A DNA stretch of 34,085 bases from Nitrosopumilaceae archaeon (GTDB lineage Archaea; Thermoproteota; Nitrososphaeria; Nitrososphaerales; Nitrosopumilaceae), in assembly GCA_028279545.1 (NCBI GenBank), contig JANQNN010000048.1, positions 1 to 34,085 on the forward strand. The letters are read 5' to 3'. A program made the position numbers and the translations under genes. Positions within the stretch are counted from its first letter, which is position 1, and every line of letters begins with the position of its first letter. Below the pieces are notes generated by a model. That model did not search any database. It saw only the letters and a program-made list of their open reading frames with translations, and was not told where the DNA came from. Shown piece after piece: positions 1-33,804 of this stretch.

Positions 1-126
1 CCACAACTTGAATCACCAGAACCTGAACCACAACTTGAATCACCAGAACCTGAACCACAACTTGAATCACCAGAACCTGAACCACAACTTGAATCACCAG
101 AACCTGAACCACAACTTGAATCACCC
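1..126 (+). repeat. 27-bp in-frame tandem repeat in the Alba gene
   Basis: Four exact copies of a 27-bp unit (1-27, 28-54, 55-81, 82-108) and a partial fifth (109-126). Each encodes PQLESPEPE. The copies are identical at the DNA level, including third codon positions, which points to recent expansion or ongoing homogenisation. The array continues past the left edge, so the copy number is unknown. Confidence 0.95.
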
Positions 127-429
127 ATTGAAGAAAAGACTGAAACCAAAGAACCTGTAGAACGTAACATCATTTATGTCGGAACCAAACCCATAATGTC
201 CTATGTTGCAGCAACCTTAACTCAACTATCAACTTTTCCAGTGGTGACCATTAAGGCTAGAGGAAAAAGAATTACCCAAGCTGTTGATGTTTCTCAAATG
301 ATCGTTAAAAGAATGGATACTGTTGGGTATAAAATAAACGAGATTAGAATTTCATCTGATTCCCTTACTTCTCAAGATGGAAAAAAAAGAAATGTTTCCA
401 CGATTGAACTTGACATTACCAAAGGCTAA
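1..429 (+). CDS. albA: Alba-family chromatin protein with acidic repeat N-terminal tail (5' end missing)
   Basis: The reading frame is open from the first base of the window, so the N-terminus lies upstream. The last ~90 residues are a complete Alba domain: NIIYVGTKPIMSYV, then KARGKRITQAVD, then SSDSLTSQDGKKR and STIELDI, which lines up with crenarchaeal Alba as I recall it. Alba binds DNA and RNA as a dimer and compacts archaeal chromatin. The loop that reads GKKP in Sulfolobus Alba reads GTKP here, so Lys17 is kept while the acetylatable Lys16 is Thr. Ahead of the domain sit four exact copies and one partial copy of a nine-residue unit, PQLESPEPE, each with three acidic residues, then a Glu/Lys linker. 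Such an acidic tail on a basic nucleic-acid-binding protein is unusual. The ATG at 196 lies inside the domain and would remove its first strand, so it is not the start. Confidence 0.9.
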   Translation, partial: PQLESPEPEPQLESPEPEPQLESPEPEPQLESPEPEPQLESPIEEKTETKEPVERNIIYVGTKPIMSYVAATLTQLSTFPVVTIKARGKRITQAVDVSQMIVKRMDTVGYKINEIRISSDSLTSQDGKKRNVSTIELDITKG

Positions 430-9745: not shown

Positions 9746-11056
9746 TTAGGCATTTTCGGCACATCTAAAGCCTGAAAACAACCATCTTTCATCTAGTCTA
9801 AAGAAATTTCTGTAGCTTGCTCTTATGGACATTTTAGGCGTGCCAAACGAGCCTCCTCGTAAAACCTTCTGGTTTGCAAACCATTTGTCATTATATTCAT
9901 CAAATCCTGTTTTGAATCCTGGGTACCCAATAAACTCTGATGAGGTCCATTCCCAAACATCTCCAATCATTTGATGACATCCATAGGGACTAATGCCTTC
10001 AGGAAAAGACCCAATCTCAGCACAGCACCACTGATATGATTCTAATAGATTAGCTCTATTATCTGTAGGATTTTCATTTCCCCAAGGAAAGACGGTTTTT
10101 TCTTGTTTGTCTTCATTCCAACATGCAGCTTTTTCCCATTCTGCTTCTGTTGGTAATCTTTTTCCTGCCCACTTGCAATATGCATCAGCTTCATAGAAAC
10201 TAACATGACAAACAGGTTCATTTGGATTAATTTTTCTTAGTCCTAAAAAGTCTCTAACCTTCCATTCTTTATCTAATTTTTCCCAATACATTGGTGAGGT
10301 CCATTCATTTTTCTTCACAGCTTCCCAACCGTCTGAAAGCCAATACTTGTAGTCTTCATATCCTCCATCTTCTATGAATTCAAGATACTGTTTGTTAGTA
10401 ACTGGGGCAGTATCGATTTTGTAATCATTGAGGTATGTCTTATGTTCAGGAAGTTCTATGTCATAACAAAAACTTGATCCATTATATCCTAAATTAAAAA
10501 TACCTCCCTTGATATGTACTGATTTTTGCTGAATCTCTACAGGTGTTTTTCTTTCACTTTTTTTGACTGGTCTATATTGGTCTGCAAGTAAGTGCTGTAA
10601 ATCATAAACCAACAATTCTTGATGCTGACATTCATGATGGAATCCCATTGTAATTAATCTAATTTCTTCATCACTAAGCTCTTTTGATTTGATAAAATTT
10701 TGTACTCTTTGATTGACATTGTTAAAGTATTGGAAAACTTCGTCCACAGTGGGTCTTGAAATTATTCCTCTTGCGCCTTTATCATTTGGTACTCCAAATT
10801 GCTGATAATACGAATTAAGATATTCTGAAAATTCTTTGGAATAAAATTCGTAATTTTTGTCTAGCTTACTTAAAATTGCTTCATAAATCCAACTTACATG
10901 TCCTACATGCCATTTTGGAGGACTCATGTAAACTGCGGTTTGAACTACAAAATCATCTTTTTCTAAGGTTTTGACAAGTTCAAGAGTTCGATTTCTAGTT
11001 GTTTTAAATTGGTCTAAAATCGATTCCTTTAGGGCTTGATCAGATATTGCAGTCAT
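9746..11056 (-). CDS. egtB: hercynine oxygenase / sulfoxide synthase EgtB
   Basis: EgtB is the iron enzyme that joins hercynine to a thiol (gamma-glutamylcysteine or cysteine, depending on type) using O2. The 436-residue protein has an N-terminal DinB-like domain with the likely iron ligands His53 (KWHVGHVSW) and His141/His145 (HHECQHQE). A C-terminal formylglycine-generating-enzyme-like domain follows, with VSFYEADAYCKWAGKRLPTEAEWE, GDVWEWTSSEF, LRGGSF and the terminal GFRCAENA. Its start overlaps the rlmN stop by four bases, so it is translated in the rlmN message. No egtA (glutamate-cysteine ligase) or egtC lies nearby, so a cysteine-using type is possible. That is inference. Confidence 0.92.
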   Translation of the reverse strand: MTAISDQALKESILDQFKTTRNRTLELVKTLEKDDFVVQTAVYMSPPKWHVGHVSWIYEAILSKLDKNYEFYSKEFSEYLNSYYQQFGVPNDKGARGIISRPTVDEVFQYFNNVNQRVQNFIKSKELSDEEIRLITMGFHHECQHQELLVYDLQHLLADQYRPVKKSERKTPVEIQQKSVHIKGGIFNLGYNGSSFCYDIELPEHKTYLNDYKIDTAPVTNKQYLEFIEDGGYEDYKYWLSDGWEAVKKNEWTSPMYWEKLDKEWKVRDFLGLRKINPNEPVCHVSFYEADAYCKWAGKRLPTEAEWEKAACWNEDKQEKTVFPWGNENPTDNRANLLESYQWCCAEIGSFPEGISPYGCHQMIGDVWEWTSSEFIGYPGFKTGFDEYNDKWFANQKVLRGGSFGTPKMSIRASYRNFFRLDERWLFSGFRCAENA

Positions 11057-20054: not shown

Positions 20055-21158
20055 CTAAGGTAGACTACCCCAGCCTCTTTCAACTAGTTTTGAAACACTT
20101 GATGAATTAACACATGAAGCTGCACCATTAGTTGATTTTATTAGCAATTCTTTGCCCTCATTGCAAACTACATTATTTACTGCAATTCCTGCATCCATTT
20201 GCTTATATGGGGACATTGCCACCATTGGTATTCCCATAGCGTCATCGGCTTCTTCCATAGCGTCATCGGCTTCTTCCATAGCGTCATTGGTTTCTTCCAT
20301 AGCGTCATTGGTTTCTTCCATAGCGTCATTGGTTTCTTCCATAGCGTCATTGGTTTCTTCCATAGCGTCATCGGCTTCTTCCATAGCGTCATTGGTTTCT
20401 TCCATAGCGTCATCGGCTTCTTCCATAGCGTCATCGGCTTCTTCCATAGCGTCATTGGTTTCTTCCATAGCATCATCAGCTTCTGATGAACCTGCCATCA
20501 TTTCATCTGGAATTACATAGTCCACATCCGCCTGATTGTCTACAGACAACGTTTTGACAGAGTCTTCGAATTCATCTATATGATTTTCAAAATCCGAAGA
20601 AGGCGAAGTTGCATATGCAAACATTACAATTTTGTCTAAAGTTGCATAATGATATGCACGTGTTTTTATTGTAATGTCTTCACCAGAACATTCACCTTGC
20701 ATTTTCATGACATCTTTATCATTTGCTTTGATTTTTTCTGCAGTCATTTCGCTACAATCAAAATCATACTCATCTGTTGGTGATTTAGGTTCTGGGGGAT
20801 TCTTGTCTTCTGGTTGGTCTATGATACTTAGCATTATTACAGAGTATTCTCCCTGTTGCATCGCATCCATGTTTGCAGCAAGACCTCCTTTCATTGCTTG
20901 AAATCCTGAAATCCATTCACCCGTATTTGGATCCTGAAAGTCTGAGGCCATACCACTCCAACCATCAGGAAGAACTACTGAAACTCCATGCTCTGTGTTA
21001 GTGTAAGTGCCACTAACTTCGTTTTGTTGCATCATCTTTTCAATGTCTTCTTGACTTGGAATATCTGGAATGTCATATTGGGCATGTACTTGCATAATTA
21101 TTCCAGGAACAATTAACAGGCTCAAAATGATTAATCCCGACTTGATAAATTCAGTCAT
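20055..21158 (-). CDS. secreted protein with acidic heptad repeats and a Cys-containing ERGWG tail
   Basis: A 367-residue exported protein. A signal peptide (LIILSLLIVPGIIMQVHAQ) is followed by a globular domain of about 170 residues (GTYTNTEHGVSVVLPDGWSGM, with a C-x14-C pair) that I do not recognise. Twelve seven-residue units E[A/T][D/N]DAM[E/G] span about residues 226-309. Met and Ala/Thr alternate at 4-3 spacing, as in coiled-coil a/d positions, and the rest is mostly acidic. The C-terminal ~50 residues carry CNEGKELLIKSTNGAASCV and VERGWGSLP, a module I recall from many thaumarchaeal surface proteins. A heptad rod between two small domains suits a cell-surface stalk or cation-binding element; the function is unknown. 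Confidence 0.85.
   Translation of the reverse strand: MTEFIKSGLIILSLLIVPGIIMQVHAQYDIPDIPSQEDIEKMMQQNEVSGTYTNTEHGVSVVLPDGWSGMASDFQDPNTGEWISGFQAMKGGLAANMDAMQQGEYSVIMLSIIDQPEDKNPPEPKSPTDEYDFDCSEMTAEKIKANDKDVMKMQGECSGEDITIKTRAYHYATLDKIVMFAYATSPSSDFENHIDEFEDSVKTLSVDNQADVDYVIPDEMMAGSSEADDAMEETNDAMEEADDAMEEADDAMEETNDAMEEADDAMEETNDAMEETNDAMEETNDAMEETNDAMEEADDAMEEADDAMGIPMVAMSPYKQMDAGIAVNNVVCNEGKELLIKSTNGAASCVNSSSVSKLVERGWGSLP
20232..20483 (-). repeat. 21-bp in-frame tandem repeat, 12 units
   Basis: Twelve units of 21 bp encode E[A/T][D/N]DAM[E/G]. Two versions alternate irregularly: EADDAME and ETNDAME. The units are otherwise nearly identical at the DNA level; only the outermost copy at about 20470-20483 shows synonymous drift. 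Because 21 is a multiple of three, the same array leaves long open frames in other frames and on the opposite strand, and these are not genes. Confidence 0.95.
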
Positions 21159-32304: not shown

Positions 32305-33804
32305 TTGGGGCTCAAACAAACGGATATGCCATCTTCTAATTTCATTGTGGAAGGACCAGCACCATTTAAGGAATCAGGAGTCTACGAGGTTCAAATATCA
32401 ATCGTGGCTGATATGCCCGAAGAGGATGAAATTAAAAACAACACGTTCTCATCTCTTTGGAGTGGAAACTTTCATCTTTTAGTTAAAGACGGTACATTTA
32501 CCGAAACTTTAGGCTTTGATAGCAATCCAATTCCTGATTCAGTATACACATTTGAGAAAGTATGGATTGTTGTAAATGATTTACTCTCATCTTTGTATTC
32601 TGTATTTGAATTTCCAATTACTTTTTCATCTAAAAAAGAACCACGCGCTTCTCCAGAACCCAAAAAAATTATTGAAACTAAAACCCCTCCTCCTTCCACA
32701 ATCCCTTCAGAATTCGTTGCTTCTGCAGCGATGTCAGGTCCCATCGGACAACCTGGCCCACAAGGCGAAAGGGGACCATATGGCCCCCCAGGAGAAAAAG
32801 GACTACAAGGACCACCGGGTCAATCTGGCGATAAAGGTCCAATGGGTGATAGAGGCCCACCTGGCGAAAGAGGTGAAAAAGGTCTAACAGGAGCTCCAGG
32901 TGATAAAGGAGACAAAGGACTTACAGGAGCTCCTGGAGACAAAGGTCAGCTTGGAATTAGAGGACCTCCTGGTGAGAAAGGAGATAAAGGACCACAAGGT
33001 CCATCTGGCGATAAAGGTATAACTGGTACTACGGGTCCTCCAGGAGATAAAGGTCCAACAGGTGCACCTGGAATCCAAGGAGATAAAGGACTTCAAGGAG
33101 CTGCAGGTTTACCAGGAGCAAAAGGACCTGCAGGTTTGACAGGACCTGTTGGTGAAAAAGGAATTACTGGTCCACCAGGAGACAAGGGATTGCAGGGTCC
33201 ACCAGGAGCAAAAGGAATAACAGGTCCTGCAGGTCCACAAGGAGAAAAGGGAGTACAAGGATTACCAGGACCAATTGGAGATAAAGGACCAAAAGGTCTT
33301 GAAGGACCTGTTGGTGAAAAAGGCCCACAAGGTCCTCAAGGTCCTGCCGGCGAAAAGGGATTAACTGGAGTACCAGGACCACAAGGCGATAAAGGTGATA
33401 AAGGTCCTGTGGGTCCTCAAGGAGAAAAAGGACCAACCGGTTTGGCAGGTCCAGCTGGTGAAAAAGGACCTAAAGGTGCTCAAGGTCCTCAAGGTGAACG
33501 AGGTTTATCTGGACCCCCTGGTGAAAAAGGCCCCCAGGGTCCGCAAGGTATTCAAGGCCCACAGGGAATGAGAGGTCCAGTTGGTCCAACAGGTCCAATT
33601 GGTGAAAAGGGTCCAACTGGAGAACAAGGTCCTGTAGGGCAAGCAGGTCCAAGAGGTCCACCAGGTCCACCAGGTGAAAAAGGACCAGCTGGTGGAATGT
33701 CTGCTGAGCAAAAAGCTTTGTTTAAAGATCTTTTGGATCTATTAACTGCTAAAGATATTATCTCAACTGAAGATCAAATCAAACTAATGAGCTACCTTTA
33801 CTGA
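32305..33804 (+). CDS. collagen-like Gly-X-Y repeat protein
   Basis: A 499-residue protein in three parts. Residues 1-115 form a beta-rich domain I do not recognise ([51 protein letters not shown]). A Pro/Lys linker follows to about 142. Residues 145-462 are 106 unbroken Gly-X-Y triplets. GEK and GDK each occur 12 times, with GER and GDR besides, so Glu/Asp at X and Lys/Arg at Y dominate. Lys-Gly-Asp/Glu steps are known to stabilise triple helices without hydroxyproline. The last 37 residues ([16 protein letters not shown]) are helical and may trimerise. No signal peptide or membrane segment is seen. The start is TTG 32305, or ATG 32326. Confidence 0.92.
32737..33690 (+). repeat. 954-bp Gly-X-Y (9-bp period) repeat tract
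   Basis: 106 consecutive nine-base units encoding Gly-X-Y without a single interruption. Glycine codons are mostly GGA, GGT or GGC, and larger units such as GPPGDKG and GPVGEKG recur, suggesting expansion by slippage or unequal crossover. Opposite-strand frames in the tract are by-products. Confidence 0.95.

Follow-up and report, generated by a model that had tools for sequence, protein, structure and literature searches.

The first gene of the window (the whole stretch of DNA analysed, 34,085 nucleotides) encodes a lineage-specific, long-tailed Alba protein, whose architecture, distribution and conservation pattern are described here. A conserved motif at the N-terminus is joined by a variable acidic linker to an Alba domain; the motif is predicted to form a helix and the linker to be flexible. 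In our assessment, there is an even chance that this tip is a putative helical docking peptide kept off DNA by an acidic spacer.

The window gene and its 5' half

Frame 1 of the forward strand is open from window base 1 to the stop codon at 427–429 and encodes 142 residues, the C-terminal end of the protein. An ORF and repeat scan found that a 27-bp unit, translated PQLESPEPE, is repeated 4.6 times over bases 1–125 with 100% identity between copies; these bases form the 3' part of an acidic tandem array. The non-repeated end of the linker follows at 126–165, and the Alba domain occupies 166–426. Pfam PF01918 matched residues 56–119 with an E-value of 2.7e-17 and 62.7 bits (cut-off 25), and was matched by all 45 members of our alignment A1. 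The first-pass annotation had described at least four identical PQLESPEPE units before an Alba domain, and the perfect copies and the PF01918 match bear this out; a long, strongly acidic N-terminal tail on a true Alba protein is likewise supported. The tail of the window protein is probably disordered. The usual description of Alba as 90–100 residues with little beyond the domain does not fit tailed Alba, but it states a typical property and not a requirement for PF01918.

Contig C4 begins within the repeat and window base 1 coincides with its first base, so that the window covers only half of the gene. A gene boundary at this base, raised as a possibility in the first-pass annotation together with an in-frame stop just upstream, was rejected, and the array was found to continue on contig C55 (10,906 bases). 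C55 breaks off within this repeat, and its final 94 bases are identical to window 10–103. The 5' part of the array and the gene start lie at 10738–10906 of C55 (locus L004), where an open frame runs from a TTG at 10738 through MSGRKSNDAEDILSEFQDLKKSKSKS into ESPEPEPQL units. This TTG was chosen as the in-frame start that aligns with relatives; the ORF listing places the start further 5', at the TTG at 10714. Inspection by eye puts the minimum at five ESPEPEPQL units, since PQL precedes the first ESP in the window but not in C55. Reading upstream thus supplied both the start and a minimum copy number. The link between C4 and C55 is supported by L015 and L016 of the same genus, which carry the whole Alba gene unbroken on one contig, together with the start and the small upstream gene seen on C55. 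At the tailed Alba gene, 16 of 90 ortholog loci run off the contig end, and three contigs of other assemblies (L146–L148) end in matching arrays.

Separate translation of the domain from the internal ATG at 196–198 (+) was also rejected. This codon sits within the Alba domain and is not a plausible separate start, because translation from it would omit strand 1 and the Lys17 loop, which precede it.

A tailed clade of Alba and its domain residues

We searched 151 genomes of the family with the domain and matched 149, from which 90 orthologous loci (the window, 29 others returned by this search and a further 60) were read, chosen as best matches and for spread over genera. In a tree of 162 domains (88 columns, weak in detail), the 90 loci formed one clade (support 100/96), split into a tailed clade of 82 rows (98/84) and eight untailed rows of genera g6, g9 and g21 (100/97). 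These three genera, whose listed open frames are 95–104 residues, were under-sampled, so that 8 of 90 understates the untailed share. Tailed Alba is carried by most genera sampled in this ammonia-oxidising archaeal family, and the comparison of tail length across relatives that the first-pass annotation had called for showed a family-wide design of motif, acidic linker and Alba domain. In a phylum-wide sample (121 genomes, 120 matching), frames outside the family were mostly 90–135 residues among the matches listed, the longest being 201; these figures are lengths of open frames.

The canonical second Alba of the same genomes formed a separate group, of which 30 rows were counted. Its N-terminal extension is 5–58 residues (12 or fewer in 25 of 30) with a net charge of −3 to +1. 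A further 12 rows of the tree (L008 and relatives) belong to a third Alba-like paralog, which is divergent and lacks the G-x-K-P motif.

Directly 5' of the Alba gene lies a small gene of unassigned function with no Pfam match (10446–10694, +, of C55 in L004). Of the 74 ortholog loci for which upstream sequence exists, 69 have this gene; the 30 canonical paralogs all lack it. In sister families f2, f3 and f5, where Alba has no tail, it was found at five of nine loci. The tail was likely added in place to an old alba gene; within the family itself, tail loss in g6, g9 and g21 is a conceivable alternative.

The protein resembles Alba/Sac10b (PF01918; Sso10b, 1h0x) in its domain, in its predicted fold order and at the Lys17, Tyr22 and Arg42 positions, and differs from it in the long acidic N-terminal arm with its tip motif, the replaced Lys16 and a mostly acidic pI. 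AlphaFold2 predicted the order beta-alpha-beta-alpha-beta-beta in relatives L015 and L053 (block pLDDT 88–96), and the sequence matched 11 distinct solved sequences. The positions of Lys17, Tyr22 and Arg42 are invariant in A1 (K97, Y102 and R121 of its first row, matched by eye). Window positions 184–189 (+) encode Thr-Lys at the Lys16–Lys17 positions, so Lys17 is kept, and in the phmmer alignment to 1h0x the equivalent of Lys16 is Thr (codon 184–186), as the first-pass annotation had stated. The Lys16 numbering is that of Sso10b. It agrees with the accessible part of PMC7498313, which also describes nucleic-acid-face roles for Lys17, Tyr22 and Arg42.

At the Lys16 position, a residue other than Lys was found in 80 of 82 rows of the tailed clade (51 Thr), whereas Lys was present in all eight untailed orthologs and all 30 canonical paralogs. 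Lys16 is the proposed acetylation site and is not required for domain membership. The first-pass annotation had reasoned that an acetylation switch would be missing and that the tail might tune binding instead. This was partly upheld: the acidic tail is real and the acetylation position has no Lys, but the tail as a replacement for the switch was weakened by L093, which has both tail and Lys. Lys occupies this position in two tailed rows, L072 and L093; the latter branches first within the tailed clade and suggests that the tail arose before Lys16 was lost. Across 148 rows (excluding L028 and L091, and with the g16 and L054 rows scored as tailed), we counted one change for the tail, three losses of Lys16 and one independent pair. 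Coevolution of tail and Lys16 loss was therefore set aside: the counts are suggestive but have no statistical support, the tail having a single origin on the tree and being in effect one event. In the accessible part of PMC7498313, K16A of S. islandicus Alba lowered dsRNA binding only about 2-fold and restored growth of the knock-down, which argues that loss of Lys16 alone is mild; a basic residue at position 17 was needed (PMC7498313).

A conserved tip on a variable acidic linker

The 82 rows of the tailed clade comprise 64 complete tails, 16 cut by a contig end and two frame-broken (L024 and L028). The breaks in L024 and L028 lie within the array and are more likely to be assembly errors than phase variation. 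Complete tails range from 12 to 616 residues (median 84.5) and have a median net charge of −14 (range −99 to +1), compared with about +4.7 on average for the domain; 63 of the 64 are negative, the exception being L054, whose start is unsure. Mean full-length pI is 4.3–5.4 in 14 of 16 genera (9.5 in g5, 7.0 in g18) against about 9.6–10.3 for the domain.

An in-frame tandem array was present in 55 of 80 tails searched. The unit varies between genera, with 4, 6, 7, 8, 9 or more residues, and includes PQLESPEPE, PQLEAPEPE, PQLPSPESE, PALSSPEPE, EPEPTP, PEAQ, PEPEHT, PEPQTESP and longer Cys/His-rich sequences. Across the 52 linkers long enough to test, Asp+Glu averaged 27% and Lys+Arg 2.8%, and acidic residues outnumbered basic ones in every case. 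A Pfam match to procyclic acidic repetitive protein in 8 of the 45 A1 members reflects low-complexity likeness, not kinship. Cys/His-rich units were seen in L064 (genome G023; HGDGSCCSES in a tail of 616 aa) and L087 (G016; SCGCSHDEP in a tail of 393 aa), and a short GSCGCGG stretch in the tails of L070 and L073 (g11); these four tails possibly bind metal.

Comparable arrays occur elsewhere in this genome. At the end of contig C37 (L005), proteins that read by eye as cupredoxin-like have Pro/Glu/Thr arrays as linkers, and C37 likewise ends inside such an array. As an array of this kind joins parts of the cupredoxin-like C37 protein, Pro/Glu arrays appear to serve as spacers in this genome. The window itself also encodes an apparently secreted protein of 367 residues with about 12 acidic 7-residue repeats (EEADDAM / EETNDAM; 20055–21158, −) and an open frame of 499 residues that includes a long run of collagen-like Gly-X-Y (32305–33804, +).

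The N-terminus of 60 of the 64 complete tails carries a motif of the DAEDILSEF type (D-A-E-[DE]-[IV]-[LF]-S-E-F), with Ala and Ile/Val in all 60 and Glu at motif position 8 in 57. It is kept on short linkers in g5 (tails of 41–48 aa) and in five of six complete g18 tails (24–40 aa). The motif can be lost, since L085, L086 and L088 of g16 (extensions of 30, 30 and 12 aa) and L054 of g18 are without it. Among the 30 loci with exactly DAEDILSEF, eight of nine codon positions vary synonymously; codons change while the peptide stays the same, indicating selection on the motif peptide. With one representative for each of 15 genera, mean pairwise identity was 0.67 for the motif, 0.74 for the domain and 0.30 for aligned linkers (13 long enough; a low-complexity alignment with a composition-expected identity of 0.12).

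The hydrophobic residues A, I, L and F fall at i, i+3, i+4 and i+7, the pattern of an amphipathic helix. Most of the hydrophobic residues of the tail lie in the motif. In 54 of 59 tails the helical hydrophobic moment peaked there, and the residues ILVFMYW made up a fraction of 0.33 of the motif versus 0.08 of the rest of the tail, with the motif higher in 59 of 59. Single-chain AlphaFold2 models of L015 and L053 both showed a tip helix and a low-confidence linker; the helix spanned residues 9–18 in one relative (block pLDDT 54–61) and 10–23 in the other (block pLDDT 75 for residues 11–20). A motif profile found this Alba in each of seven tailed genomes and nothing else convincing there (next best E 0.044), nor anything convincing in 19 untailed, g16 or outgroup genomes (best E 0.055). 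A PCNA-binding (PIP) box was considered for the tip and dropped, as the motif lacks both Gln at position 1 and a second aromatic residue.

Possible docking or autoinhibition and the meaning of the arm

Together with the family role of Alba in binding DNA, these features are consistent with the following arrangement. The Alba domain would bind DNA, while a disordered, acidic, mostly Pro/Glu-rich arm would project from each monomer and carry the conserved amphipathic helix at its tip. The tip would be a docking peptide for another protein or a neighbouring Alba, and the arm a spacer whose acidity may prevent it from contacting DNA or the basic DNA-binding face. Arm length would change quickly through slippage of the minisatellite, with selection maintaining composition and tip. 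The first-pass annotation had offered masking of the DNA-binding face and recruitment of other proteins as roles for the tail. Recruitment or docking is favoured over plain masking, because the most conserved part of the tail is the tip helix and not the repeat. Charge masking does not account for the hydrophobic tip, which is conserved and kept even on short linkers. The single-chain AlphaFold2 models show no docking site.

The main rival, tentative but appreciably weaker in our view, is Hfq-like autoinhibition. Here the acidic arm and tip would mimic nucleic acid and fold onto the basic face of the same or a neighbouring Alba, which would lower affinity, speed release or limit bridging, as with the acidic tails of Hfq or HMGB1. 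The motif is itself acidic and could be a nucleic-acid mimic, which counts against docking. The charge contrast between tail and domain, the mostly acidic pI and a composition that stays acidic while linker sequence changes all fit autoinhibition. For Hfq, PMC5606850 describes an acidic tip that competes with RNA; the linker bearing this tip is non-conserved, and its length determines how strong the effect is. In HMGB1, negatively charged disordered regions are autoinhibitory, although they can also accelerate target search (PMC10250230). Tailed Alba shares with Hfq a nucleic-acid-binding core and a conserved tip on a variable, non-conserved linker (PMC5606850, seen in part). The tip is not purely acidic, however: aliphatic or aromatic residues make up one third of the motif, and these hydrophobics would be superfluous for a pure charge mimic. 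Here the tip is an N-terminal amphipathic helix, the linker is itself acidic and repetitive, and the fold is unrelated to that of Hfq. The HMGB1-type D/E repeats are likewise strongly negative, disordered extensions on a DNA-binding protein (PMC10250230, in part), but in tailed Alba acid alternates with Pro in Pro/Glu units without D/E runs, and there is a conserved tip in addition. Moreover, some tails reach only about −2 to −6 (g5, g18), and no confident contact could be read from the two single-chain models, which is weak evidence. Docking and autoinhibition can both be partly true.

It is improbable that the array is a neutral passenger tolerated in a permissive linker, with selection on the motif and domain only. 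The units are near-identical in DNA, length differs from species to species and arrays are absent from g5, g18 and g22, as expected of slippage. Against this, the differing units are all acidic and poor in Lys/Arg, and the canonical Alba of the same genomes has no such arm. A mis-assembled fusion or separate production of the domain is very improbable: despite the loci that run off contigs and the two frame-broken arrays, the gene is unbroken in single-contig genomes (e.g. L022, L032, L038 and L077), its start and motif are conserved, and an internal ATG would cut the domain.

Plant ALBA–YTHDF provides a further parallel, in which the Alba domain acts together with a short linear motif located in a disordered region; there the motif is on the partner, whereas here it is on the Alba protein itself (PMC11649824, seen in part). 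A search of titles and abstracts, with most subscription papers outside its coverage, returned no description of this Alba tail and no experiment on it. The accessible parts of PMC7613761, PMC3043068, PMC11621453 and PMC4200833 do not mention such a tail, and PMC9289680 does not contain Alba as a whole word.

It is possible, though we hold it to be less than likely, that Alba-coated DNA in these archaea forms a brush of acidic arms displaying a docking helix, with a fast-changing minisatellite setting the reach in each species. In a few lineages (L064, L087), the arm, as a repeated Cys/His-rich array, might bind metal. Tailed Alba is found in close relatives of Nitrosopumilus, which rank among the most common oceanic archaea, and DNA organisation in Nitrosopumilus-related archaea has, to our knowledge, been little studied. 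The tailed and untailed sister lineages offer a natural comparison. If docking is true, the conserved tip of the Alba arm would be a direct bait for the partners recruited by archaeal chromatin.
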